64,000 nucleotides of DNA from an uncultured SAR86 cluster bacterium (GTDB taxonomy: Bacteria; Pseudomonadota; Gammaproteobacteria; Magnimaribacterales; D2472). A program made the position numbers and the translations under genes. Position 1 is the stretch's first letter. Every line of letters begins with the position of its first letter. The stretch spans positions 1 through 64,000 of the forward strand of contig CABWZP010000001.1 of the NCBI GenBank assembly GCA_902509965.1, given 5' to 3'. Below are positions 9,415-19,553 of the stretch, piece after piece. A model generated the notes under the pieces. It did no database searches, was not told the origin of the DNA, and was given only the letters and a program-made list of their open reading frames with translations.

Positions 9415-10770
9415 GTGAATATACATACTATTATTCTTGCAGCTGGGGCTGGCTCTAGAATGAAATCCAACCAAGCCAAAGTTCTTCAAAGAATTGGCGG
9501 CATGTCTATGTTGCAAAGAGTTTTGCAAACCACAACTAAACTCAACTCAAAATCAACCGTTGTTCTTGGTCACGATAAAGAAGGTGTCTTGCAACACCTT
9601 CAAGATATTGAAGGCAATATTTCTACAGCTATACAGGTCAATCAACTCGGCACTGCAGATGCTGTAAAAAGCGCCATGCATAATACAAAAAGCAGTGAAA
9701 CAATTCTGGTTCTCTATGGAGATGTTCCGCTTGTATCAGAAAAATCTCTTCAAGAACTTATTGATAAATCAGAAAATGGATTTTCAATTCTTACAACTCG
9801 CCTAGATGACCCTTTTGGGTATGGGAGGGTTATTACCGATGCTGATAATTTTGCTACAGCAATAGTTGAAGAAAAAGATGCATCAGAGGATGAAAAGCTA
9901 GTAAATGAAATTTTTACTGGAATTTTGTGCATAAGCCAAGAGCTTTTAGCTGCCGGGCTTCAAGAAATTACAAACGATAATGCGGCCAAAGAATTTTATT
10001 TAACCGACCTAGTTAAGATTATTTCTGCAAAAGGTATTAAAATAATACCTATTAGGGCAAATAATGATGAAGTAAGAGGGGCTAATAGTAAATCAGAGCT
10101 TGAAGCTTTAGAATCAATATTAAGAAATATGAACGCACAAGACTTATTAGACAAAGGTATAACGCTAGCTGACAAATCCAGAACAGATGTCAGAGGTAAT
10201 GTAGATGCGGGTAATGATTGCTCAATTGACGTTAATGTTATTCTTGAAGGAAGTATTAAGCTTGGTAATAGTGTTTCGATAGGGGCTAATAATTATTTAA
10301 AAGATGTCATTATTGGCGACAATACAACCATTGAGCCTTTTTCACACCTTTGTAATACAAGCGTGGGTTCAAATTGTAATGTTGGCCCTTATGCTCGTCT
10401 CAGAGAAGGCAGCACCATAGAAGATGGCGCAAAAGTTGGCAACTTTGTGGAAACTAAAAAAACAACTTTAGGTAAAGGAGCAAAGGCTAACCATTTCACA
10501 TATCTTGGCGATGCTGATATTGGAGAGAATACTAATATAGGCGCCGGAACCATTACATGTAATTATGATGGCACCAACAAACACCAAACAACCGTAGGCA
10601 GCGATAGCTTTATTGGCACTAATTCATCTTTGGTTGCACCAGTTGAGATTGGAAAAAATGCTTATGTTGGCGCAGGCTCAGTTATCACTAAAGATGTGCC
10701 AGATGATGCTCTTGCCGTTGGCAGAGGCAAACAAATTATCAAAGAAGATTGGTCTAAGGATAAGAAATAA
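9415..10770 (+). CDS. glmU: Bifunctional GlmU: GlcN-1-P acetyltransferase / GlcNAc-1-P uridyltransferase
   Basis: A 451-residue enzyme making UDP-GlcNAc for peptidoglycan and lipid A. The N-terminal uridyltransferase has the ILAAGAGSRMKS loop (residues ~6-18) and the VLYGDVPL motif. The C-terminal half is a left-handed beta helix of hexapeptide repeats with the acetyltransferase signature NFVETKKTTLGKGAKANH. The start is GTG at 9415. Its stop shares one base with glmS. Confidence 0.96.
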   Translation: MNIHTIILAAGAGSRMKSNQAKVLQRIGGMSMLQRVLQTTTKLNSKSTVVLGHDKEGVLQHLQDIEGNISTAIQVNQLGTADAVKSAMHNTKSSETILVLYGDVPLVSEKSLQELIDKSENGFSILTTRLDDPFGYGRVITDADNFATAIVEEKDASEDEKLVNEIFTGILCISQELLAAGLQEITNDNAAKEFYLTDLVKIISAKGIKIIPIRANNDEVRGANSKSELEALESILRNMNAQDLLDKGITLADKSRTDVRGNVDAGNDCSIDVNVILEGSIKLGNSVSIGANNYLKDVIIGDNTTIEPFSHLCNTSVGSNCNVGPYARLREGSTIEDGAKVGNFVETKKTTLGKGAKANHFTYLGDADIGENTNIGAGTITCNYDGTNKHQTTVGSDSFIGTNSSLVAPVEIGKNAYVGAGSVITKDVPDDALAVGRGKQIIKEDWSKDKK

Positions 10771-12596
10771 TGTGTGGAATTATAGCAGCCGCATCAACAA
10801 GAAATGTTGGTAAGCTTTTAGTTCAAGGACTCCATAAAATGGAGTACCGAGGCTATGACTCTGCTGGAATAGCGCTCCATCAGCATGAATCAATAGCTCA
10901 CCTTAGAGCTCTTGGAAAAGTTCAGTTACTTGAAGACAAGATGGTTGCTGAAAAACCAAAGAGCAAATTAGGCATAGCTCATACAAGATGGGCTACCCAT
11001 GGTGAGCCATCAGAAGCAAATGCCCACCCTCATAAATCTAAAGACAGAGTTTATATTGTCCACAACGGCATTATTGAAAACTATATCGAATTAAGAGAAT
11101 CCTTAGTCAAGGATGGTTATGAATTCTCATCACAAACCGACTCAGAGCTTATAGCCCATTTGCTAGATTTATATCTCAATCAGGGCAATTGCATGATTGA
11201 TGCTATGTACTTAGCTAAAAAACAATTAGATGGAGCCTATGCTATTGCAGCTATAGATATTGAAAATGATGCAAGTTTAGTTGTAGCAAGAAATAAATCA
11301 CCTTTACTACTAGGCCTTGGCACAGATGAAATGCTTGCAGCATCTGATCCCCTGGCGATTGGTCAATTAACAAATGAGTTTATTTTTCTAGATGATGGCG
11401 ATGTAGCAGAAATATCAGCAGAGACTTATACAATTTTTGATGCAGATAAAAAAGAAGTTACCAGAGAAATCACTAATATTGATATCTCAAGCCAAGCAAC
11501 TTCAAAGGGCGAATTTAGACACTTCATGGAAAAAGAAATTTATGAGCAGCCAGAAGCTATTTTAAACACAATTAATGGCAGAGTGGGTGGAGACGATGTT
11601 CTTGATAATATTTTTGGTCTTGGCTCTACTGACTTATTTAAAAAAGTTAAACGTATTCAAATAGTAGCATGTGGCACTAGTTTGCATGCTGGCCGAGTAG
11701 CAGCCAGCTGGCTTTCATCCATTTCAGAACTTCCGTGTCAAATCGATTATGCAAGTGAGTATAGGTACAGAAATCCCCATGTTGACGAAAACTCTTTGCT
11801 AATTAATATTTCACAATCAGGTGAAACCGCAGATACTCTTGCAGCCCTAAGATATGCAAAAGAAAAAGATTATTTAGGCTCTGTTGGAATTTGCAATGTG
11901 CCAACAAGCTCCTTAGCAAGAGAGTCAGATTTTGTTTTATTTACCAATGCAGGCCCCGAGATTGGAGTTGCCTCTACTAAAGCATTTACTACTCAACTTG
12001 CCGGACTCATGCTCCTTGCATTATCTATAGCTAAAAGCAAAGGCGTAAATCCAAAACTTAGAACACGAGTAGTAACAGCACTAAGATCTTTGCCCGACAT
12101 TATTAATCAGACACTAGAGTTAAAAGACCAAATTTTAGAACTAGCACCTGCAATAGCAAGCAAGGACAATGCTTTATTTCTAGGCAGAGGAATTTTCTAT
12201 CCAATAGCAAAAGAGGGCGCCTTAAAGCTAAAAGAGATTTCATATATTCATGCCGAAGCCTACCCAGCAGGAGAACTTAAGCATGGACCATTAGCCCTTA
12301 TAGATGAAAAGATGCCAGTTATTGCATTAGCTCCAGAGAGTGAGATTGCAGAAAAGCTTGTATCTAACCTAGAAGAAGTAAAAGCCAGAGGCGGCACCCT
12401 ATATGTTTTTGCTGACCCATCTGTCACCATGGATGTTAATAATGGTGCTTTAGTTAGCATGCCTAAGTGCGATTTTCTATTAACACCTATTATTTATACT
12501 ATCCCCCTTCAACTTCTATCTTATGAAGTGGCTCTCTTAAGAGGAACGGACATTGACCAGCCAAGAAATCTAGCTAAGTCAGTCACAGTGGAGTAA
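10770..12596 (+). CDS. glmS: Glutamine-fructose-6-phosphate aminotransferase GlmS
   Basis: A 608-residue class II amidotransferase making glucosamine-6-P. The nucleophile is Cys2 (MCGIIAA), followed by the glutaminase motifs EYRGYDSAGIA and HTRWATHGEPS, then two SIS domains (SQSGETADTL; CGTSLHA) and the C-terminal LRGTDIDQPRNLAKSVTVE tail. The 3' end is the conserved target of Tn7-type elements in many bacteria. Here its last five codons plus stop recur nine times downstream. Confidence 0.97.
   Translation: MCGIIAAASTRNVGKLLVQGLHKMEYRGYDSAGIALHQHESIAHLRALGKVQLLEDKMVAEKPKSKLGIAHTRWATHGEPSEANAHPHKSKDRVYIVHNGIIENYIELRESLVKDGYEFSSQTDSELIAHLLDLYLNQGNCMIDAMYLAKKQLDGAYAIAAIDIENDASLVVARNKSPLLLGLGTDEMLAASDPLAIGQLTNEFIFLDDGDVAEISAETYTIFDADKKEVTREITNIDISSQATSKGEFRHFMEKEIYEQPEAILNTINGRVGGDDVLDNIFGLGSTDLFKKVKRIQIVACGTSLHAGRVAASWLSSISELPCQIDYASEYRYRNPHVDENSLLINISQSGETADTLAALRYAKEKDYLGSVGICNVPTSSLARESDFVLFTNAGPEIGVASTKAFTTQLAGLMLLALSIAKSKGVNPKLRTRVVTALRSLPDIINQTLELKDQILELAPAIASKDNALFLGRGIFYPIAKEGALKLKEISYIHAEAYPAGELKHGPLALIDEKMPVIALAPESEIAEKLVSNLEEVKARGGTLYVFADPSVTMDVNNGALVSMPKCDFLLTPIIYTIPLQLLSYEVALLRGTDIDQPRNLAKSVTVE
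12579..12596 (+). repeat. glmS-tail repeat R0 (native glmS end)
   Basis: TCAGTCACAGTGGAGTAA, coding S-V-T-V-E-stop in the glmS frame. This is the reference copy for the repeats R1-R9 that bound the modules downstream. Confidence 0.9.
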
Positions 12597-12620
12597 GTTT
12601 GAAACGACTTTCGTTCAAAC
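12597..12620 (+). repeat. Hairpin at left end of module 1, directly after glmS
   Basis: GTTTGAA and TTCAAAC form a perfect 7-bp stem around ACGACTTTCG, three bases of which can extend the stem past a bulge. It may end the glmS transcript or be part of the recombination site. The GAAACGACTTT inside it (12601-12611) recurs inverted as AAAGTCGTTTC at the right ends of modules 1 (13694-13704) and 2 (14895-14905). Confidence 0.6.
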
Positions 12621-12624
12621 CTCG

Positions 12625-12795
12625 CATTCTGCCGGGGTTTTAAAAATCACTAAAAATAAATCCCTGTAAAAACTACCCTAAAATTTTCACCTATTTTTTC
12701 GTGTTAGCGGAAGTCATAAGGGATTGATATGACACGTTGCGGTCCTGTATGTATATTCATAGGACATTTATAAGGAGTTGTGGCAGAATTTATTA
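12625..12795 (+). ncRNA. Conserved leader of module 1 (copy A), candidate structured RNA or regulatory leader
   Basis: This stretch aligns without gaps to 13758-13928 in module 2, at about 84% identity by eye, although the genes that follow are unrelated. Two hairpins are possible in both copies: GTCATA...TATGAC (with different loops), and GTCC/GGAC closed over TATG/CATA, where copy B has a compatible G-U change. AAGGAG at 12772 precedes a tiny GTG-initiated frame (MAEFINV-stop) that overlaps the main start. Whether it acts as RNA, promoter or DNA end is unknown. Confidence 0.4.
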
Positions 12796-13635
12796 ATGTC
12801 TAAAAATAAAACTCGATGGTACAAGCCAGTTCGAATTGGTTTGAGAAAAACCACCATATATATTGGTGATACCAAAGTTAAATTTTATAATGACAGAAAA
12901 ACATACAAAGAATATTTAGCCGATAGATTCAATCCTAATATCAATGATGGTAAACATTTTTTGGAACTCCACAAATATGTTAAAAATTATGTCTCCTTTG
13001 AGGGTATACCACTATTTGCTAATTTAGAAGCTGAAACATCAAAAATTGAGTTTCCAGAAATTTGGCGTACCAAAAAAAGTACCATAACAGGATTGGGTCG
13101 TGAGGTCTTTCCGAAGAATGTTGTTTATCTAAAATACTCAACTGAAAAACGTTATCTGCAACTAAAAAAAATACATAAACCAGAACTTCCTGTTGATTAT
13201 AAATTCCCAAAACATTTAGGTTGCAATGATCATTTATACAAAGACCTTAAAGAATATCATCCTGATGAAAGTAGAAAAGAAAAACGTTTAAGAATTAGAT
13301 CCTATGCAAAGAAACGAAGAGAAGAAAATAATATTTATATTACAAAAGAATATGGTTCTATAATTGCAGGAATAATATCCCTATCGATATCCCTATCGAT
13401 AACACTATTTGATGCTATAAAAACAATCATAGTTCTTGCCTTTAAGTTGCCTTTCTTTCCTTTCTGGCTACTAGGACTTTTTTATTGGAAATATCTTCGA
13501 GAGGTGACAGATGAGCTTGATTTGAAATATCAAAATGAGCTTGGATATTTTTTTATAGCAACTCTTGGAATTATACTTGTAGGCGGGTCAGTCGGTATTG
13601 TATTCGCTACTTTAGAAATATTAAGTTACTTATGA
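12796..13635 (+). CDS. Hypothetical protein with C-terminal membrane segments, module 1 cargo
   Basis: I do not recognise this 279-residue protein. The N-terminal ~190 residues are soluble, lysine- and tyrosine-rich, with a very basic stretch (ESRKEKRLRIRSYAKKRREE). Hydrophobic segments follow near residues 190-205, 210-230 and 255-275. The ORF track begins at TTG 12778, but ATG 12796 is preferred because it aligns exactly with the start of the module 2 gene (both 199 nt after the preceding repeat). It has no homologue elsewhere in the window. Confidence 0.75.
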   Translation: MSKNKTRWYKPVRIGLRKTTIYIGDTKVKFYNDRKTYKEYLADRFNPNINDGKHFLELHKYVKNYVSFEGIPLFANLEAETSKIEFPEIWRTKKSTITGLGREVFPKNVVYLKYSTEKRYLQLKKIHKPELPVDYKFPKHLGCNDHLYKDLKEYHPDESRKEKRLRIRSYAKKRREENNIYITKEYGSIIAGIISLSISLSITLFDAIKTIIVLAFKLPFFPFWLLGLFYWKYLREVTDELDLKYQNELGYFFIATLGIILVGGSVGIVFATLEILSYL

Positions 13636-13642
13636 GTAATTC

Positions 13643-13729
13643 ATGCAACCAAAACTCAACTCTTTCAAACACCACAGAAATAGCGGAGATAGAAAAGTCG
13701 TTTCGTACTACTCCGTCACGGTCGAGTAG
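13643..13729 (+). CDS. 28-aa mini-ORF ending in the glmS tail, module 1
   Basis: ATG to TAG, product ending VVSYYSVTVE. A matching 28-aa ORF of the same length ends module 2 (14844-14930); the two differ at about 11 sites, roughly half of them synonymous, including the stop codon. It could be a translated micropeptide or simply an open frame within a conserved recombination end. No good ribosome site is seen. Confidence 0.35.
   Translation: MQPKLNSFKHHRNSGDRKVVSYYSVTVE
13712..13729 (+). repeat. glmS-tail repeat R1
   Basis: TCCGTCACGGTCGAGTAG, coding SVTVE-stop. The flanks ACTACTC and GAGTAGT make a perfect 7-bp hairpin around the core. It ends module 1 (1133 bp). Confidence 0.85.
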
Positions 13730-13757
13730 TTTCAAACTACTTTAGGTTTTAACCCCA

Positions 13758-13928
13758 CATTCTGCCGGGATTTCAAGAATCACTAAAATTTAACCCCGGT
13801 AAAAACTACCCTAAAAATTTCACCTATTTTTTCGTAATAGCGGAAGTCATAAGGGGTGTATATGACTTGTTGCGGTCCCTTATGTGTATTTATAGGACAT
13901 TCATGATGAGTTATGGCAGAATAAATAT
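13758..13928 (+). ncRNA. Conserved leader of module 2 (copy B)
   Basis: This is the ungapped counterpart of 12625-12795, offset by exactly 1133 bp, the length of module 1. It keeps both hairpins (GTCATA...TATGAC; GTCC...GGAC with a G-U for G-C change). It also keeps a mini start at the same position, here ATG-GCA-GAA-TAA, just before the cargo ATG at 13929. That the start codon is GTG in one copy and ATG in the other hints that it is read by ribosomes. Confidence 0.4.
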
Positions 13929-14300
13929 ATGAAAAATTTATTATTTATATTTGCTCTATGTTCGTTTTCATTGCTTTCTTTTGCTGAAGATAACCCAGAA
14001 GGTATTGCCTGCGCAATTTACGTTGACGATAAATCAAACACAAAAGAACAAATCTTAAGTATGGGATGTGAAAAAGGAGACCCTTTGTTATTTTATAACT
14101 ATGCAAATAAGGCAAAATGGAACTTAATGTATTCTTTAAGAATTTCAGCACTTTCAACTTGTGACATGACTCTTCCTATTACCGACAGTGGTGTAATAGG
14201 GGCGCAACCATATCAATCTATTTTTTGCACTTTTTCTGGTAAATTTAGAGATGTAAAGGCAGATCCTAAATATTTAAAGGGTTGGAATTGGAAACTGTAA
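13929..14300 (+). CDS. Small secreted protein, module 2 cargo
   Basis: A 123-residue protein with a clear Sec signal peptide (MKNLLFIFALCSFSLLSFA, cleavage likely before EDNPEG). The mature part of about 104 residues has four cysteines (in IACAIYV, MGCEKGD, STCDMTL, IFCTFSG) that could form two disulfides. The family is not recognised. It is followed after 18 bp by another secreted protein, so the two probably form an operon. Confidence 0.7.
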   Translation: MKNLLFIFALCSFSLLSFAEDNPEGIACAIYVDDKSNTKEQILSMGCEKGDPLLFYNYANKAKWNLMYSLRISALSTCDMTLPITDSGVIGAQPYQSIFCTFSGKFRDVKADPKYLKGWNWKL

Positions 14301-14318
14301 TCATTTTGTATACAAATT

Positions 14319-14798
14319 ATGTATAAATTCTCCACTTTTTTTATTCTTGCAACTTTGTCCACATTCTCTTTTAGTAAGGAGTTGAATTTAACCTGCGTTA
14401 TAGACAACGATGTGTCATTTGATATTTTTTTAAATATTAATAATACATTTTCAACCAATCCAGGTGCATATGCAGGTCATGTTACCTTGGTTTCAGATAA
14501 ATTATTTCATCCGTTCAAGGCGTATCAAGAGGAAGACCTTAAATTATGGTCGGACGTATCAATTAGGGCAATGCCTCTCGTTGTTGCTATTTTTAAAGAT
14601 ACATATGACCTAAAAGCACCACATTCTCTTCCCCTTTCTGGAATAGGAGGCGCTTTTAATATGTCGCTAAACAGAAAAACTCTTTTGGGAGAGGGATCAT
14701 ATAATAGTGGAAGAAAGAAGTGGGGAATGAGAAAAAAAATTGATTTTAAAGACGCTCCATGTAATTTAATTGACCTAGAAGAAGAAAATGTTATCTAG
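14319..14798 (+). CDS. Small secreted protein, module 2 cargo
   Basis: A 159-residue protein with a signal peptide (MYKFSTFFILATLSTFSFS, then KELNLTC). The mature region has two cysteines (NLTCVID and APCNLID) at its two ends and no recognised domain. Its basic/glycine-rich segment GEGSYNSGRKKWGMRKK is near the C-terminus. It lies 18 bp after the preceding secreted protein gene. Confidence 0.65.
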   Translation: MYKFSTFFILATLSTFSFSKELNLTCVIDNDVSFDIFLNINNTFSTNPGAYAGHVTLVSDKLFHPFKAYQEEDLKLWSDVSIRAMPLVVAIFKDTYDLKAPHSLPLSGIGGAFNMSLNRKTLLGEGSYNSGRKKWGMRKKIDFKDAPCNLIDLEEENVI

Positions 14799-14843
14799 AT
14801 TAGTAAATTTTCTGATGGAACATTAGCAACTTGTGAGTTATTC

Positions 14844-14930
14844 ATGCAACCAAACCTCAATACTTTCAAACTCCGCAGAAATAGTGGAGATAAGAAAGTC
14901 GTTTCGTACTACTCCGTTACTGTAGAGTAA
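14844..14930 (+). CDS. 28-aa mini-ORF ending in the glmS tail, module 2
   Basis: Matches the module 1 mini-ORF in length and most residues (MQPxLNxFKxxRNSGDxKVVSYY then SVTVE). Third-position and stop-codon differences in the last six codons preserve the peptide. It may be translated, or its frame may be kept only because the recombination end must rebuild the glmS terminus. Confidence 0.35.
   Translation: MQPNLNTFKLRRNSGDKKVVSYYSVTVE
14913..14930 (+). repeat. glmS-tail repeat R2
   Basis: TCCGTTACTGTAGAGTAA, SVTVE-stop. TACTC and GAGTA pair across the core. It ends module 2 (1201 bp). Confidence 0.85.
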
Positions 14931-14947
14931 GTTTAAACAGTGATTTA
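14931..14947 (+). repeat. Module 3 left-end repeat
   Basis: GTTTAAACAGTGATTTA immediately follows R2. Its exact reverse complement is at 17486-17502, the right end of module 7. Close copies follow R3 (15373), R5 (16906), R6 (17079) and R9 (19554). Paired with the inverted copy TAAATCACTGTTTTG at 15334, it gives module 3 inverted terminal repeats. Confidence 0.7.
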
Positions 14948-14961
14948 TAAAGGAGATAATT

Positions 14962-15336
14962 ATCAATATTAAAGAATCATTTATTTCAGTTTTTACTAAT
15001 TGGAAAAATTTTCATGGAAGAGCATGCAGAAGCGAGTATTGGTATTTTGTTCTTTCAGTGTCTCTAATTGCATTCGTATTGGGATTTGTAGAAGTATTTT
15101 TAGGAATATTTAATGAAGAAATTGGTTATGGACCATTTGCAGCATTATTTCAAATCATAACTTTTATTCCTAGCGTTTCAGTCACATCAAGAAGATTGCA
15201 AGACAGAAGCATTTCTGGTTGGTGGCAACTATCCTACATCACAATTGTTGGGATATTTGTAATTTTAATTTTACTAATGCTTCCAGCAAAAGAAGATGAA
15301 AATAAATGGGGAAGGAATCCACTTCTAGATATGTAA
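14962..15336 (+). CDS. DUF805 membrane protein with non-ATG start, module 3 cargo
   Basis: A DUF805-family inner-membrane protein (function unknown), paralogue of 17111-17488. The ORF track begins at 15058, but the frame and similarity extend upstream through TNWKNFHGRACRSEYWYF, so the true gene is about 124 residues. At the two positions where the paralogue has ATG (MNMKE) this copy has ATC (14962) and ATT (14968), behind AAAGGAG. Either a non-canonical start is used or the gene has lost its start. The RRLQDRSISGWW motif and C-terminal NKWGRNP are intact. Confidence 0.75.
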   Translation: MNIKESFISVFTNWKNFHGRACRSEYWYFVLSVSLIAFVLGFVEVFLGIFNEEIGYGPFAALFQIITFIPSVSVTSRRLQDRSISGWWQLSYITIVGIFVILILLMLPAKEDENKWGRNPLLDM

Positions 15337-15354
15337 ATCACTGTTTTGTTCAAG
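15334..15354 (+). repeat. Module 3 right-end inverted repeat
   Basis: TAAATCACTGTTTTGTTCAAG begins at the DUF805 stop codon and is the inverse of the left-end type TTTGAACAGTGATTTA. With the right arm ATTTGAATGGTGATTA (15373-15388) it forms a dyad that encloses R3. Confidence 0.6.
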
Positions 15355-15372
15355 TCAGTAACCGTTGAATAG
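15355..15372 (+). repeat. glmS-tail repeat R3
   Basis: TCAGTAACCGTTGAATAG, SVTVE-stop, preceded by AAG so that it reads K-S-V-T-V-E as in true GlmS. The DUF805 frame runs into it after the TAA stop. It ends module 3 (442 bp). Confidence 0.85.
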
Positions 15373-15413
15373 ATTTGAATGGTGATTAAATTTTTTTAAA
15401 TGCAATATAATTT

Positions 15414-15728
15414 ATGAATTCTCAAAATCCTAAACGTTGGATTCCTGGTGGGATAACCCTAGTAGCATCACTTATTGTGAAGAACAATGCACCGGCACTG
15501 ATTGCTTCAGAAAGTTTTAGATACTTTTCATTGTTTATACTTCTTTCCGGATTATCTTCAATAATGTTAATGATTTTAATTTCTCAAATTCAGAAACCCC
15601 AGAGTAACGAACAATCAGAAAAAACGTTCGCAATATTCTACTTTTACACCATGCCAACAATGTTTTATAGCATGGTATTTATTGGTGATGATTTTGACAA
15701 TATAAAATTCATAATGTCTTTTTTTTAA
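15414..15728 (+). CDS. Hypothetical small membrane protein, module 4 cargo
   Basis: A 104-residue protein with about three hydrophobic stretches (near residues 12-30, 37-58 and 72-90). It is not recognised. ATG follows a very A/T-rich 40-bp stretch after R3 and has no obvious ribosome site. It is the only sizeable gene in module 4. Confidence 0.5.
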   Translation: MNSQNPKRWIPGGITLVASLIVKNNAPALIASESFRYFSLFILLSGLSSIMLMILISQIQKPQSNEQSEKTFAIFYFYTMPTMFYSMVFIGDDFDNIKFIMSFF

Positions 15729-15747
15729 ATGTGATACATTTAAGGTA

Positions 15748-15801
15748 ATGAACACGATAAACGAAATCACTACTCGCACTTACTCTGCAACTGTAGAATA
15801 G
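15748..15801 (+). CDS. 17-aa mini-ORF ending in a glmS-tail variant, module 4
   Basis: ATG (after TAAGGTA) to TAG, product ending TRTYSATVE. It is another short open frame that runs into the repeat. Translation is unproven. Confidence 0.25.
   Translation: MNTINEITTRTYSATVE
15784..15801 (+). repeat. glmS-tail repeat R4 (variant SATVE)
   Basis: TCTGCAACTGTAGAATAG. This is the only copy with Ala for the first Val, a second-position change. It ends module 4 (429 bp). Confidence 0.75.
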
Positions 15802-15807
15802 TTTCCA

Positions 15808-16905
15808 ATGAGAATATTTTTCTTTATAGCAATTTTCTTTAGTCAACTAATTTTAAGTTCTGATAGCAATTATGTATTTGGATGGACCCAATTAGATAAT
15901 CCAGACTTGATGACACCAAGAGGAGGGACTTCCTCAGGTCCAGATGTTGACTTAGATAAAACTCCCAACCCTTTATGGAAGGAAATACAAAATGATGAAT
16001 TGACCAAATTTGAAAAAGATAGGTTAGCAATTCTTGCAATGCAAGGTGAACATAAAATTAATTTTGATTTCATGGAGACAATGGGTTTCACTAAGGACTA
16101 CATACCGTCAAAACCTTATCAGTCATGGGGAACAGAATTTGTAATCGCGGTTGAAGATGAAAAGGATTTCATAAGTCTGCAACACATAATGGTAATGTTC
16201 TTTGAACAAGATGATGGGACGACCTCAGATCCTATTGTTGTTAAACACTGGAGACAAGATTGGAAATACCAAGATAATTCAATTAATGAGTTTGTTGGAG
16301 AAAATACATGGGAAAGAAAAAATCTATCCTACAGTGAGAGAAGAGGAACTTGGTCACAAACGGTCTATCAAGTAGATGACTCACCAAGATACGAGGGTTT
16401 TGGGGAGTGGAAACATTTTGCAAACTCATCATCATGGACAAGCAATGAAACAAAAAGACCTCTTCCAAGAAGGGAGGCGACCATAAGAGATGATTACGAT
16501 ATTGTTATTGGAACCAACATACACACAATTACCCCGAACGGATGGGTTCATGAGCAAAACAATAATAAAGCGACACTAGATAATAAAGTTATTGCAAAAG
16601 AAATTGGTTTAGCAAGATATCAAAGAATAGAAAACTTTGATTGGTCAGCAGGATATACCTATTGGGATAAAACTTCAGACTTTTGGAAAAAAGTAAGAGA
16701 GGTTTGGAGTGAAAAGATAGAAAAACAAAAAAAAATTAAGGTTAATTCTGATGTTGAAGGTAATATCTTATTCGCACGATTGTTTGGATTAGCAGATGAT
16801 TATAAGAACGGCAATTTAGATGCAATTGAAAAGATAGAAACCACAATTGATGAACATATTGAAAAAAGAAAATTTGGTTATGGTTACTCCGTTACGGTTG
16901 AGTAG
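15808..16905 (+). CDS. Secreted DUF6607-like protein whose C-terminus is the glmS tail, module 5 cargo
   Basis: A 365-residue protein with a signal peptide (MRIFFFIAIFFSQLILS). The middle contains KHWRQDW, VYQVDDSPRYEGFG, RPLPRREATIRDDYD and a GWVHEQNN segment, which I recall as typical of the DUF6607 family; function unknown. It starts 6 bp after the R4 stop. The last residues, GYGYSVTVE, are encoded by repeat R5, so the gene either runs into the recombination site or was fused to it. Confidence 0.75.
   Translation: MRIFFFIAIFFSQLILSSDSNYVFGWTQLDNPDLMTPRGGTSSGPDVDLDKTPNPLWKEIQNDELTKFEKDRLAILAMQGEHKINFDFMETMGFTKDYIPSKPYQSWGTEFVIAVEDEKDFISLQHIMVMFFEQDDGTTSDPIVVKHWRQDWKYQDNSINEFVGENTWERKNLSYSERRGTWSQTVYQVDDSPRYEGFGEWKHFANSSSWTSNETKRPLPRREATIRDDYDIVIGTNIHTITPNGWVHEQNNNKATLDNKVIAKEIGLARYQRIENFDWSAGYTYWDKTSDFWKKVREVWSEKIEKQKKIKVNSDVEGNILFARLFGLADDYKNGNLDAIEKIETTIDEHIEKRKFGYGYSVTVE
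16888..16905 (+). repeat. glmS-tail repeat R5
   Basis: TCCGTTACGGTTGAGTAG, SVTVE-stop, in frame with the preceding 365-aa gene. TACTC/GAGTA pair across it. It ends module 5 (1104 bp). Confidence 0.85.
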
Positions 16906-16923
16906 ATTTGAAAAGATAATTAA

Positions 16924-17019
16924 ATGAGTAAAAAAATAAATTTTGATAGAAAAGCACTCTTTTGGACATTAATAGGTTTTAACCTTGGATGGATATTTAT
17001 GCTTCTTATGGTTGGGTAG
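16924..17019 (+). CDS. 31-aa single-span membrane micropeptide, module 6 cargo
   Basis: Too short for the ORF track. ATG to TAG with a basic start (MSKKINFDRKALFW) and one hydrophobic segment (TLIGFNLGWIFMLLMVG). It lies 18 nt after the R5 stop and is the only plausible gene in a 173-bp module, which supports but does not prove that it is expressed. Confidence 0.45.
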   Translation: MSKKINFDRKALFWTLIGFNLGWIFMLLMVG

Positions 17020-17060
17020 TTTTTAATAAAATAAAAAATGAGAAACCTTGCTACGGACAC

Positions 17061-17078
17061 TCTGTTACCGTGGAGTAG
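17061..17078 (+). repeat. glmS-tail repeat R6
   Basis: TCTGTTACCGTGGAGTAG, SVTVE-stop, preceded by an open frame reading CYGH, similar to GYGY before R5. It ends module 6 (173 bp). Confidence 0.85.
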
Positions 17079-17110
17079 AACAAAACAGATAATTAAAAAG
17101 GAGAATTATT

Positions 17111-17488
17111 ATGAATATGAAAGAGGCAGTCGTTTCAGTTTTAACAAATTGGGACAATTTTAGTGGTAGAGCATGCAGAAGTGAGTATTGGTATTTTGTT
17201 TTAGCATCTATCTTGCTCTACACATTGGTTTTCTTTTTAGAGATTGCAACAGGCATAGTTGAAATTGAAAGTGATGAGATGGGCAAATTAAGTATAATTT
17301 CACAGTTAGTTTTAGCAATACCAACTTTTTCGGTTACCTCAAGACGACTTCAAGATAGGGGATACTCCGGTTGGTGGCAACTATCCTACCTAATCATCAT
17401 TGGTGTTTTTGTGATCCCTTTATTGTGTATATTTCCAGCAAAAGAAGATGAAAATAAATGGGGAAGGAACCCCCTTGTAGAAAATTAA
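17111..17488 (+). CDS. DUF805 membrane protein, module 7 cargo
   Basis: A 125-residue DUF805-family protein with four predicted hydrophobic segments, the N-terminal FSGRACRSEYWYF signature, the central SRRLQDRGYSGWWQLS motif and a C-terminal NKWGRNP. AAGGAG lies 10 bp before ATG. It is paralogous to the module 3 gene and lies between the same type of ends, so the two modules likely share an ancestor. Confidence 0.85.
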   Translation: MNMKEAVVSVLTNWDNFSGRACRSEYWYFVLASILLYTLVFFLEIATGIVEIESDEMGKLSIISQLVLAIPTFSVTSRRLQDRGYSGWWQLSYLIIIGVFVIPLLCIFPAKEDENKWGRNPLVEN

Positions 17489-17502
17489 ATCACTGTTTAA
17501 AC
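17486..17502 (+). repeat. Module 7 right-end inverted repeat
   Basis: TAAATCACTGTTTAAAC starts at the DUF805 stop codon. It is the exact reverse complement of the module 3 left end (14931-14947) and a close inverse of the module 7 left end (17079-17095). Confidence 0.65.
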
Positions 17503-17506
17503 TTAA

Positions 17507-17524
17507 ACAGTCACAGTAGAGTAG
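17507..17524 (+). repeat. glmS-tail repeat R7 (variant TVTVE)
   Basis: ACAGTCACAGTAGAGTAG. Thr replaces Ser and a TAA precedes it in frame, so it is not the end of an ORF. It ends module 7 (446 bp). Confidence 0.75.
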
Positions 17525-17552
17525 TTTATGATTCGTATTGATAAAAAGTAAA

Positions 17553-17918
17553 ATGGATTATTGGTTTCTGATGATTGCGGCCTTCCTTTCTCTGGCAGGA
17601 ATGTTGTTTCATGGGTTCATCGGGGGAAAAATTTATATTAGCAATGTAAATGATAGCGATATGGAGGCATTAACAAAATCGTTAAGCATTGTTTCTTGGC
17701 ACGTGTTCACCATCTTTCTTTTTATAAGTGCTTTAACTTTAATTTATATAGCCTATAACCCAGAATTTGCTATAGCTGCATATCCGGTAATTGGCATTAA
17801 CCTTTTAGGCTCACTTTTATTTATTTTTCTTAGTTTGGGAAGACATAGAGCTTTATTAAGAATGCCAGGTGCTCTTCTAATGGGTATTACGGCATTGCTT
17901 GCTTGGCTGGGAATATGA
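17553..17918 (+). CDS. Hypothetical four-span membrane protein, module 8 cargo
   Basis: A 121-residue protein from ATG 17553 (the track uses TTG 17538). There are four hydrophobic segments near residues 4-22, 45-65, 70-92 and 98-119. It is not recognised. A short 25-aa frame starts inside its stop codon (ATGA overlap) and runs to R8. Confidence 0.6.
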   Translation: MDYWFLMIAAFLSLAGMLFHGFIGGKIYISNVNDSDMEALTKSLSIVSWHVFTIFLFISALTLIYIAYNPEFAIAAYPVIGINLLGSLLFIFLSLGRHRALLRMPGALLMGITALLAWLGI

Positions 17919-17992
17919 TAGAGCTCAAAGGGTTATATCTATTGGAAAATCCCCCAATACGAATTATAAACAACTCCGTAACGGTCGAATGA
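17915..17992 (+). CDS. 25-aa mini-ORF ending in the glmS tail, module 8
   Basis: ATG overlaps the upstream stop as ATGA, which would allow translational coupling. The product ends RIINNSVTVE. Unproven. Confidence 0.3.
   Translation: MIELKGLYLLENPPIRIINNSVTVE
17975..17992 (+). repeat. glmS-tail repeat R8
   Basis: TCCGTAACGGTCGAATGA, SVTVE with a TGA stop, the only TGA among the ten copies. It ends module 8 (468 bp). G+C content rises sharply right after it. Confidence 0.85.
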
Positions 17993-18018
17993 TCGACGGC
18001 GCACTAGGGAGTTGACGT

Positions 18019-18822
18019 CTGTTTAAGCACATTCACATTGTTGCCTGCTCGCCGCGATCCGGTACTACTCTCTTGCACGAGGCGATGGTCACCTGTTTTC
18101 GGACAAACAAGCATTATGACCATGAGATTCGCTTTCACCTCGTAACCGCAAAAAACAACGATGTGGTTATCACGAAACGACCCAAAGATACGTTGTACAT
18201 GCCAGGAGTCATCGACGATCCTAATCTCTATGTCATTTACGTAACGCGCGATCCGCGTGATGTCATCGTTAGCCGGCACGGTAAGAGCGAGGATATGTAC
18301 TACTCGAACATTAGGCTTTGGCGTGAATTGCATGCCTGTGCACGCTCATTGTTCGGCCACGATCGTTTTCTCAATATCCGGTACGAGGATTTCGTAAATA
18401 ACCCTGACGCCACACAAAGCCAAATCACTGCAAAATTTCCATGGCTTGAGAAACAACACAAATTTTCTGAGTACCATGAACACGCGCAAGTGTCTGAAAA
18501 GTCAAAGGTTGCAATGCGTGGCGTCCGTCCTATTGGACCGACCAGTGTCGGTGTCTGGCGAAAACATCTCGGTCGCATCGTTCAACAGCAGGCAATCCAC
18601 GGCACAATGACACCAGATCTGGTCGGTTGTGGATACGAATCATCGCCGGATTGGGAAGTTGTTCTGGACGGCATTTTACCGGATAAATCTAACAGTTGGT
18701 ATCCGGAGAAAAAACGTTTTTGGCAGAGAATTTCGCAATCCATTGATGCTTCGAGAAAAATAGCTATCTATCGGCGCAAGAAAGGACTTAGTCGAATCAG
18801 CAGAGCAACCAATGATCGTTAG
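18019..18822 (+). CDS. Sulfotransferase, module 9 cargo, start codon unclear
   Basis: A PAPS-dependent sulfotransferase family protein. The 5'-phosphosulfate loop CSPRSGTTLL lies upstream of the first ATG (track start 18073), so the gene must begin earlier. In frame, only CTG 18019 (about 8 nt after AGGGAG) or ATT codons lie between the TGA at 18013 and the loop. From CTG the protein is 267 residues. The 3'-phosphate-binding segment YVTRDPRDVIVSRHG is intact. G+C is near 50%, far above the neighbours, so it is probably recently transferred. Confidence 0.75.
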   Translation: MFKHIHIVACSPRSGTTLLHEAMVTCFRTNKHYDHEIRFHLVTAKNNDVVITKRPKDTLYMPGVIDDPNLYVIYVTRDPRDVIVSRHGKSEDMYYSNIRLWRELHACARSLFGHDRFLNIRYEDFVNNPDATQSQITAKFPWLEKQHKFSEYHEHAQVSEKSKVAMRGVRPIGPTSVGVWRKHLGRIVQQQAIHGTMTPDLVGCGYESSPDWEVVLDGILPDKSNSWYPEKKRFWQRISQSIDASRKIAIYRRKKGLSRISRATNDR

Positions 18823-19510
18823 CCATGCAAAGAAGTTTATTTTCGTAAAGACCCGTAAAACCTCGGGCACAAGCATGGAGGTTAGTCTGAGCCAAGTCTG
18901 TGGTCCCGATGACATCATCACTCCGATATCGTTTGAAGACGAACTCGTCAGGCTGGACATGGGCGGCACGTTACCTCAGAACTACGCTGGTCTTGGAGAG
19001 CAGCGATATCGCGATATGATAAAGGCACGCAAGATGAAATTTTTACGCGCCAGACGCCGTGGCAAGTGTTTCAATCATATGCCGGCTGTTGCGATTCGCG
19101 AGTACGTCGGCAAAAAAACTTACGATGATTACTTCACTTTTTCGATCGAAAGGCATCCGTACGAAAAGGTTGTATCACATATCTATTATCATACGCGCGG
19201 AAAAAAGAACTGGAGTTTTGACAAGGAGCTTGAGCGTGTCCTGAAGAAGAAGCATTACGTCAGTTACCCAATCTATTCAGACGGTGAAAAACCTATTGTC
19301 GATTTCATTGTCAATTTTGACAATATGCAGGAAGACCTCACGACCCTCGGCGACAGGCTTGAATTTGATATTGTCGCGCACTATCCACAAACCAAACACG
19401 AATTCCGAACTAACAGAAGGCCTGCATCCGAGCTGTTGTCGCAGAAAGTAAAGGACCAAATATATAAGAACTGCAGGATCGAGTTCGATGCAATGGGTTA
19501 CGAGCGTTAG
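18812..19510 (+). CDS. Sulfotransferase family 2-like protein, module 9 cargo
   Basis: A 232-residue protein resembling carbohydrate sulfotransferases. The PSB loop is KTRKTSGTSMEVSLS (residues ~13-27) and the 3'-PB site is FSIERHPYEKVVSH near residue 110. It overlaps the first sulfotransferase by 11 bp, so the two are one transcription unit. G+C is high, like its partner. A role in modifying surface polysaccharide is plausible, but the substrate cannot be told. Confidence 0.8.
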   Translation: MIVSHAKKFIFVKTRKTSGTSMEVSLSQVCGPDDIITPISFEDELVRLDMGGTLPQNYAGLGEQRYRDMIKARKMKFLRARRRGKCFNHMPAVAIREYVGKKTYDDYFTFSIERHPYEKVVSHIYYHTRGKKNWSFDKELERVLKKKHYVSYPIYSDGEKPIVDFIVNFDNMQEDLTTLGDRLEFDIVAHYPQTKHEFRTNRRPASELLSQKVKDQIYKNCRIEFDAMGYER

Positions 19511-19511
19511 C

Positions 19512-19553
19512 ATGATCACGACACGACGAAAACAATCCGTCACTGTGGAGTAG
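19512..19553 (+). CDS. 13-aa mini-ORF ending in the glmS tail, module 9
   Basis: ATG one base after the sulfotransferase stop, product ending RRKQSVTVE. Another very short frame into the repeat; may be chance. Confidence 0.2.
   Translation: MITTRRKQSVTVE
19536..19553 (+). repeat. glmS-tail repeat R9 (last copy)
   Basis: TCCGTCACTGTGGAGTAG, SVTVE-stop, followed by ATTTGAACAGTGATTTA (19554-19570), the common left-end sequence. No further copy is seen downstream, so it is the distal boundary of the array. Confidence 0.85.

Follow-up and report, generated by a model that had tools for sequence, protein, structure and literature searches.

Directly behind glmS in the 64,000-nucleotide stretch of SAR86 DNA analyzed here (the window; positions 1 to 64,000 of contig CABWZP010000001.1), nine small units stand in tandem, bounded by ten copies of an 18-bp core, TCNGTNACNGTNGARTRR, that is the end of the GlmS coding sequence. 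All ten cores lie on the + strand. The units, here called cassettes, are probably for the most part non-autonomous and moved in trans by large serine recombinases, in an integron-like arrangement that has neither IntI nor attC. A preliminary description of the window had taken the inverted repeats flanking the cores for the arms of an integron-type hairpin. Judged from their sequence, these repeats mark the two ends of each cassette and most probably represent the half-sites of a serine-recombinase attachment site.

The evidence comes from a comparison set of 80 further SAR86 array regions. These contain 279 cassettes and 363 junctions, of which 76 are true ends of glmS. Statistics from the window alone were dropped as too weak: its cassettes match at 3-15 of 17 arm positions, and the best of them (17515-17982) reaches p=0.014.

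Crossover point, inverted ends and arm classes

The crossover point was mapped by finding the same cassette end next to different neighbors in different genomes and comparing the wobble positions of the core. Positions 3 and 6 track the left neighbor, with linkage of 0.97 and 0.82 at 95% flank identity (right neighbor, 0.04 and 0.19), while positions 9, 12, 15 and 18 track the right neighbor, with linkage of 0.53, 0.61, 0.95 and 0.75 (left neighbor, between −0.18 and 0.16). Since positions 3 and 6 are linked upstream and positions 9-18 downstream, the switch, between positions 6 and 9, lies within or next to the central AC at positions 7-8. The exchange point coincides with the dyad centre of the arm symmetry described below, as for the 2-bp crossover at the dyad centre that marks large serine recombinases; as read from the core sequences, it fits the 2-bp overlap of these enzymes. 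A sharp crossover alone is not proof, since single-strand exchange could also produce a sharp point.

The same data bear on the possibility that a tyrosine recombinase, of the phage type or Xer, acts on double-stranded cores with inverted arms. Inverted arms, a target at the 3′ end of a gene and restoration of the intact gene would also be typical of such an enzyme, and XerC/XerD-like genes are present in these genomes. However, an overlap of 6-8 bp would give two-sided inheritance at wobble position 6 or 9, which is not seen, and the one recombinase located within an array, in an element whose ends match, is of the serine type. A tyrosine recombinase of this kind is therefore unlikely.

To compare arms, half-sites were measured outward from the core centre (distance d). 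Within a cassette, one end is an inverted repeat of the other, with identity mostly 0.5-0.7, versus 0.3-0.5 for random pairs, over about d=11-30. They match only in exact register about the AC: 9.16 of 15 positions agree at offset 0, versus 5.87 for random pairs, and other offsets are near random. In a dereplicated set of 151 cassettes, the ends match at 11.14 of 17 positions, versus 6.76 when shuffled (standard deviation 0.20). With the commonest arm class removed, the remaining 98 cassettes give 10.35 versus 5.93 (0.23), and the pattern replicates in an independent family, f2, where 35 cassettes give 12.11 versus 6.58 (0.48). The identity over d=11-30, replicated in f2, agrees with the pseudo-palindromic half-sites of about 25 bp expected for a large serine recombinase; the attP half-site of a serine integrase is 25 bp long and pseudo-palindromic, with a zinc-domain motif at 16-24 and a central dinucleotide (PMC3783163).

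Arms that face each other across a junction match at 5.01 of 13 positions, versus 4.95 for random pairing, and junctions are no more stably folded than random pairings (−5.20 versus −5.07 kcal/mol, p=0.41), so the fold expected of an attC-type junction was not found. Sites rebuilt from both ends of one cassette fold better (−9.55 versus −5.07 kcal/mol for random pairs). Because the ends pair within a cassette and not across a junction, the arms are the ends of one unit and not the two sides of a junction. They pair only once both ends of a single cassette are brought together, as they would be in an excised circle.

The arms also fall into shared sequence classes. Among the 151 unrelated cassettes, 78% have a left arm in common with another cassette (at least 12 of 15 positions), versus 14% after column shuffling. 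The largest class, AACAGTGA-TTA (AACAGTGATTTA), accounts for 65 of the 151, and others are GGTTGTACC, CGTTTGCAGAATTA and AATCGGTCTTTC. Arm mismatches compatible with G.T pairing make up 19%/23% of those observed and 19%/16% of those in random pairs, which is no clear excess. Shared classes without a clear wobble bias suggest that the arms are recognized by their sequence, by several proteins, and the distinct classes may reflect distinct recombinase specificities.

These results separate what was sound in the earlier proposal from what was not. The constant cores at the recombination junctions of many arrays are indeed flanked by paired arms that differ in sequence. As cassette ends these arms are complementary far beyond chance; facing each other across a junction they are no more so than random pairs. 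The outcome that the preliminary description had named as its refutation, a lack of complementarity at most junctions of a larger set, therefore holds for junctions but not for cassette ends. The likeness of the array to an integron survives, but not the junction hairpin. The suggestion that structure rather than sequence is recognized is not supported by the arm classes and the lack of a clear wobble bias, nor is an attC-like stem supported by the crossover on the AC, which would be the loop of the hairpin, whereas attC exchange occurs at the stem base.

An integron-like system, in which single-stranded hairpins of junctions or circles are recognized by their structure by an IntI-type tyrosine recombinase, would account for arms that vary among cassettes yet pair within one, for the better folding of rebuilt circle sites and for single-gene, co-oriented cassettes. 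It would not account for junctions that fold as random pairings, for arms of shared sequence with no clear wobble bias, or for a crossover in an unpaired loop. Moreover, the window genome, a 1.08-Mb draft that is 82% complete, has no IntI and only two PF00589 genes (300 and 301 aa), both on other contigs. Its relatives usually have two per genome, XerC/XerD-like, and extra copies lie outside the arrays. Such a system is very unlikely.

That the cassettes are transposons, Tn7-like or of another kind, which carry terminal inverted repeats and are aimed at the glmS tail is scarcely probable: glmS is the classic Tn7 target and each cassette has terminal inverted repeats, but these differ among cassettes at one site, core halves are swapped between partners at a fixed point, which is a mark of conservative site-specific recombination, and the 25 commonest Pfam families of 128 scanned cassette proteins include no transposase or Tns protein (no genome-wide tns search was made). 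Equally improbable is shuffling of the short repeats by homologous recombination with no dedicated recombinase, the ends being alike by descent from old elements; although most genomes have no detected serine recombinase, such shuffling would not be expected to confine exchange to one dinucleotide of an 18-bp core flanked by unrelated sequence, nor to conserve the register within cassettes.

The array in the window and in related genomes

The glmS gene is preceded by atp genes and glmU, and an SMR transporter gene lies downstream of the last core. The pattern search for cores gave 11 matches in the window, versus 1.3 expected. Cassette limits run from AC to AC.

10770..12596, + strand: glmS, 608 aa, ending ...NLAKSVTVE-stop (open reading frame, sequence); host site of the array and presumed original attB
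12579..12596, + strand: core R0, the real glmS end; central AC at 12585-12586 (pattern search, crossover mapping)
12587..13719, + strand: cassette 1, 285-aa membrane-type open reading frame; ends GAAACGACTTT (12601-12611) and AAAGTCGTTTC (13694-13704), 1 nt out of register
13712..13729, + strand: core R1; 7-bp stem ACTACTC/GAGTAGT around it at 13707-13730
13720..14920, + strand: cassette 2, two small secreted-type open reading frames; right end AAAGTCGTTTC (14895-14905)
14913..14930, + strand: core R2 (pattern search)
14921..15362, + strand: cassette 3, DUF805 gene; ends GTTTAAACAGTGATTTA (14931-14947) and TAAATCACTGTTTTG (15334-15348), 13/17
15355..15372, + strand: core R3 (pattern search)
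15363..15791, + strand: cassette 4, 104-aa open reading frame; ends 10/17
15784..15801, + strand: core R4, 1 mismatch
15792..16895, + strand: cassette 5, DUF6607 gene; same left end with other neighbors in arrays L111, L112, L113, L132 and L149
16888..16905, + strand: core R5, which gives the in-frame SVTVE-stop end of the gene in the cassette before it
16896..17068, + strand: cassette 6, 173 bp
17061..17078, + strand: core R6 (pattern search)
17069..17514, + strand: cassette 7, second DUF805 gene; right end TAAATCACTGTTTAAAC (17486-17502)
17507..17524, + strand: core R7, 1 mismatch
17515..17982, + strand: cassette 8, 126-aa membrane open reading frame; ends TTTATGATTCGTATT (17525-17539) and AATACGAATTATAAA (17956-17970), 15/17, p=0.014, the best-paired in the window
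17975..17992, + strand: core R8 (pattern search)
17983..19543, + strand: cassette 9, two sulfotransferase genes, GC content 0.47; family found with different neighbors in about 12 other arrays
19536..19553, + strand: core R9, the last detected

Several details of the preliminary description hold at the level of the letters: the end sequences that it gave for cassette 3 are present, the right end of cassette 7 is the exact reverse complement of the start of cassette 3, a different arm pair is used in cassettes 1 and 2, and the stem around R1 is a perfect 7 bp. The hairpin that it drew from arms enclosing R3 (15355) does not hold, since these arms match at 10 of 17 positions (p=0.17) and facing arms pair as random across arrays. 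Two side observations concern individual cassettes. The frame of the DUF6607 gene (15808-16905) enters the core and ends in SVTVE, as GlmS does, and the GC content of the sulfotransferase cassette compares with 0.29-0.36 in the other cassettes of the window.

The exact core is present in 87 of 107 genomes of the window's family and in 157 of 203 of its order, mostly as several same-strand copies per contig. Among 365 other Gammaproteobacteria sampled across the class there is usually no core or one, and no genome has three same-strand copies. Within this sample, such arrays are restricted to the SAR86 order. Outside the order, in genome G550 (region L179), glmS is followed at a distance of 980 bp by a single additional core, preceded by a 310-aa open reading frame; this is perhaps a single cassette.

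Cassettes have a median length of 625 bp (n=279), the largest open reading frame is on the glmS strand in 88% of the 279, and the median distance from the core to the first open reading frame is 32 bp. Forty-nine cassette families recur, in orders shuffled between arrays. These are small, co-oriented, single-gene cassettes shuffled among relatives, as in integron arrays. The share with well-paired ends falls with array position, from 64% for cassette 1 to 33% for cassette 5 and 17% for cassette 6 (samples farther out are small and noisy), and blocks common to several arrays tend to sit away from glmS, as do families 11-7-14 in L086, L087 and L088. Entry of new units beside glmS would be expected to leave such better-kept ends in first cassettes and shared blocks farther out.

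Some cassettes also share parts other than their ends. A conserved leader of about 200 bp, usually ending at the start codon, is common to 27 of the 279 (window 12613-12808 and 13746-13929; alignment of 27), and it has no Rfam match and no conserved RNA fold. Many of the cassettes with this leader also have a common tail of about 75 bp (e.g., window 14830-14900), with unrelated genes between leader and tail, in the manner of a reusable cassette chassis.

Recombinases and proposed working

Serine recombinases are rare in these genomes. They were found in three of the 107 family genomes, and 80 further genomes of the order yielded one 213-aa open frame and one sub-threshold match. The informative case is the SAR86 metagenome-assembled genome AH-326-D05 (G084), of the window's family, in which a 551-aa large serine recombinase is encoded in a glmS-proximal 6.0-kb module (L127). 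The enzyme has Resolvase and Recombinase domains and a sub-threshold Zn-ribbon match, and its relatives of solved structure in the PDB are SPbeta SprA/YokA and TP901-1 integrase. The module ends, GAGTAAGTTTAGTCGGTCTTTC and GACTAAGTTTAATCGGTCTTTC, pair at 15 of 17 positions and belong to the CGGTCTTTC class, which is also used by unrelated small cassettes. From this sequence evidence, a role of the enzyme in array recombination is inferred. Phage matches to it are distant (<30% identity), no relatives were found in viral contigs, and a search of genome contigs returned its own genome only. The module also encodes a rolling-circle replication protein of the REP_ORF2-G2P type and has no recognizable virion genes. 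In another array (L083), a decayed fragment resembling a serine recombinase catalytic domain abuts a cassette end, although the match is weak (E=9e-4).

Several other candidates were set aside. The serine recombinases of G079 (L155) and G088 (L156), large enzymes of about 520 aa, adjoin a tRNA-Ala-like gene (the tRNA was read by eye) and not glmS, which suggests a second kind of integrative element. No tyrosine integrase was found in the arrays, extra PF00589 genes lying elsewhere. An L081 protein matched an EF-hand only, and a PF07508 match first taken for a second recombinase turned out to belong to a family of stand-alone 89-aa proteins. A family of about 85 aa is often encoded by the first cassette gene (L122, L141, L103, L084, L085, L106, L097, L100, L087 and L130), in several cases in cassettes with HNH or restriction cargo. 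The member scanned matches half of the PF07508 Recombinase domain, the DNA-binding part of serine integrases, and the family is possibly a regulator or directionality factor.

In the proposed mechanism, an excised circle would join both ends of a cassette into a pseudo-palindromic attP, made up of the right half-site, the AC and the left half-site. A serine-family recombinase from one of the rarer elements would then act in trans, cut at the AC and insert the circle at the glmS end or a neighboring core, usually next to glmS. The left part of the core would stay with the upstream DNA, and the right part (V-E-stop, GTN GAR TRR) would arrive with the cassette, so that insertion would rewrite yet preserve the GlmS end and recreate a core for the next insertion. 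Because the cassette brings the last glmS codons, GlmS stays whole, which explains why SVTVE-stop with free wobble positions is found at every junction. Cassettes would usually be promoterless and expressed from the glmS operon; read-through from glmS is suggested by how closely the start codons follow the core.

Some observations weigh against this mechanism. The link between recombinase and cassettes comes from one intact element, the only intact array-borne serine recombinase among 187 SAR86-order genomes, many of which are incomplete drafts, and no enzyme in the genomes searched is tied to the commonest arm class, AACAGTGATTTA (65/151). About half of the cassettes lack well-paired ungapped ends, through missed junctions, indels or decay, and a search of viral contigs for attP-like patterns found none. 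By the textbook scheme, serine integrases do not recombine a hybrid attL site with attP, and growth of an array at glmS needs this reaction or an equivalent one. Growth at hybrid sites thus departs from the usual serine-integrase rule, although the islands of the staphylococcal cassette chromosome (SCC) also stack at one site.

Cargo, significance and known systems

Cassette proteins form 241 clusters, and recognizable cargo includes DUF805 proteins, sulfotransferases, HNH and Mrr nucleases, type I and II restriction-modification systems and methylases. One cassette of 5.2 kb with paired ends (L122, 8850-14080 in oriented coordinates) holds a complete-looking type I restriction-modification system.

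SAR86 bacteria, which have small genomes, rank with the most abundant uncultured bacteria in surface seawater. The standard example of a single-gene cassette array is the integron; the comparable array described here seems to be built by serine-type recombination in a housekeeping gene. On balance, though by no wide measure of confidence, the arrays may represent independently evolved gene capture of the integron type, with serine recombinases of many specificities, one 2-bp crossover in the glmS stop-codon region, glmS as platform and probable promoter, and single-gene arrays (membrane proteins, sulfotransferases, restriction and HNH nucleases) across an order of abundant ocean bacteria. No publication on glmS-tail cassette arrays was found in the open library that was searched; subscription journals or preprints may hold a description. 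The glmS tail, the central AC and the arm classes offer a concrete target for searches for the enzymes and for tracking gene flow in SAR86, including that of defence genes, and the arm classes are ready-made candidate attP sites.

Among known systems, Tn7 likewise uses the 3′ end of glmS, at attTn7, but it transposes downstream of the gene with target-site duplication, whereas the SAR86 arrays reflect conservative exchange inside the last codons, with core halves exchanged. Composite islands of SCC and SCCmec are another parallel. Their Ccr proteins are serine recombinases, and SCC elements are mobilized in trans. As in SAR86, insertion is at the 3′ end of a housekeeping gene, in this case orfX/rlmH, and leaves the gene intact. 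Such islands have direct repeats at their junctions and inverted repeats at element ends, form tandem composites with up to eight copies of the integration site, and include members without a recombinase of their own (PMC3900703). The pairing of ccr with rlmH that defines an SCC was not found here: the draft window genome has no PF00239 gene, and the target is glmS. The SAR86 units also differ from SCC in being mostly single genes of about 0.6 kb rather than tens of kb, in the almost constant absence of a recombinase from the genome, and in having many arm classes around one core.

Integrons share with the SAR86 arrays small, mostly single-gene, co-oriented and shuffled cassettes (compare PMC1382264), and insertion at the proximal end is suggested. 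Unlike integrons, the window genome has no detected IntI, each site is divided between the two ends of a cassette, with the crossover as its centre of symmetry, there is no attC-type junction hairpin, and the platform is the glmS end rather than attI. The elements of large serine integrases (A118/LI, phiC31, TP901-1 and SPbeta SprA) are matched in the Resolvase, Recombinase and Zn-ribbon domains of the G084 enzyme and in the size and symmetry of the attP half-site (PMC3783163). The SAR86 cassettes are unlike them in carrying no integrase, in having far more varied arms and in being stacked at one site.

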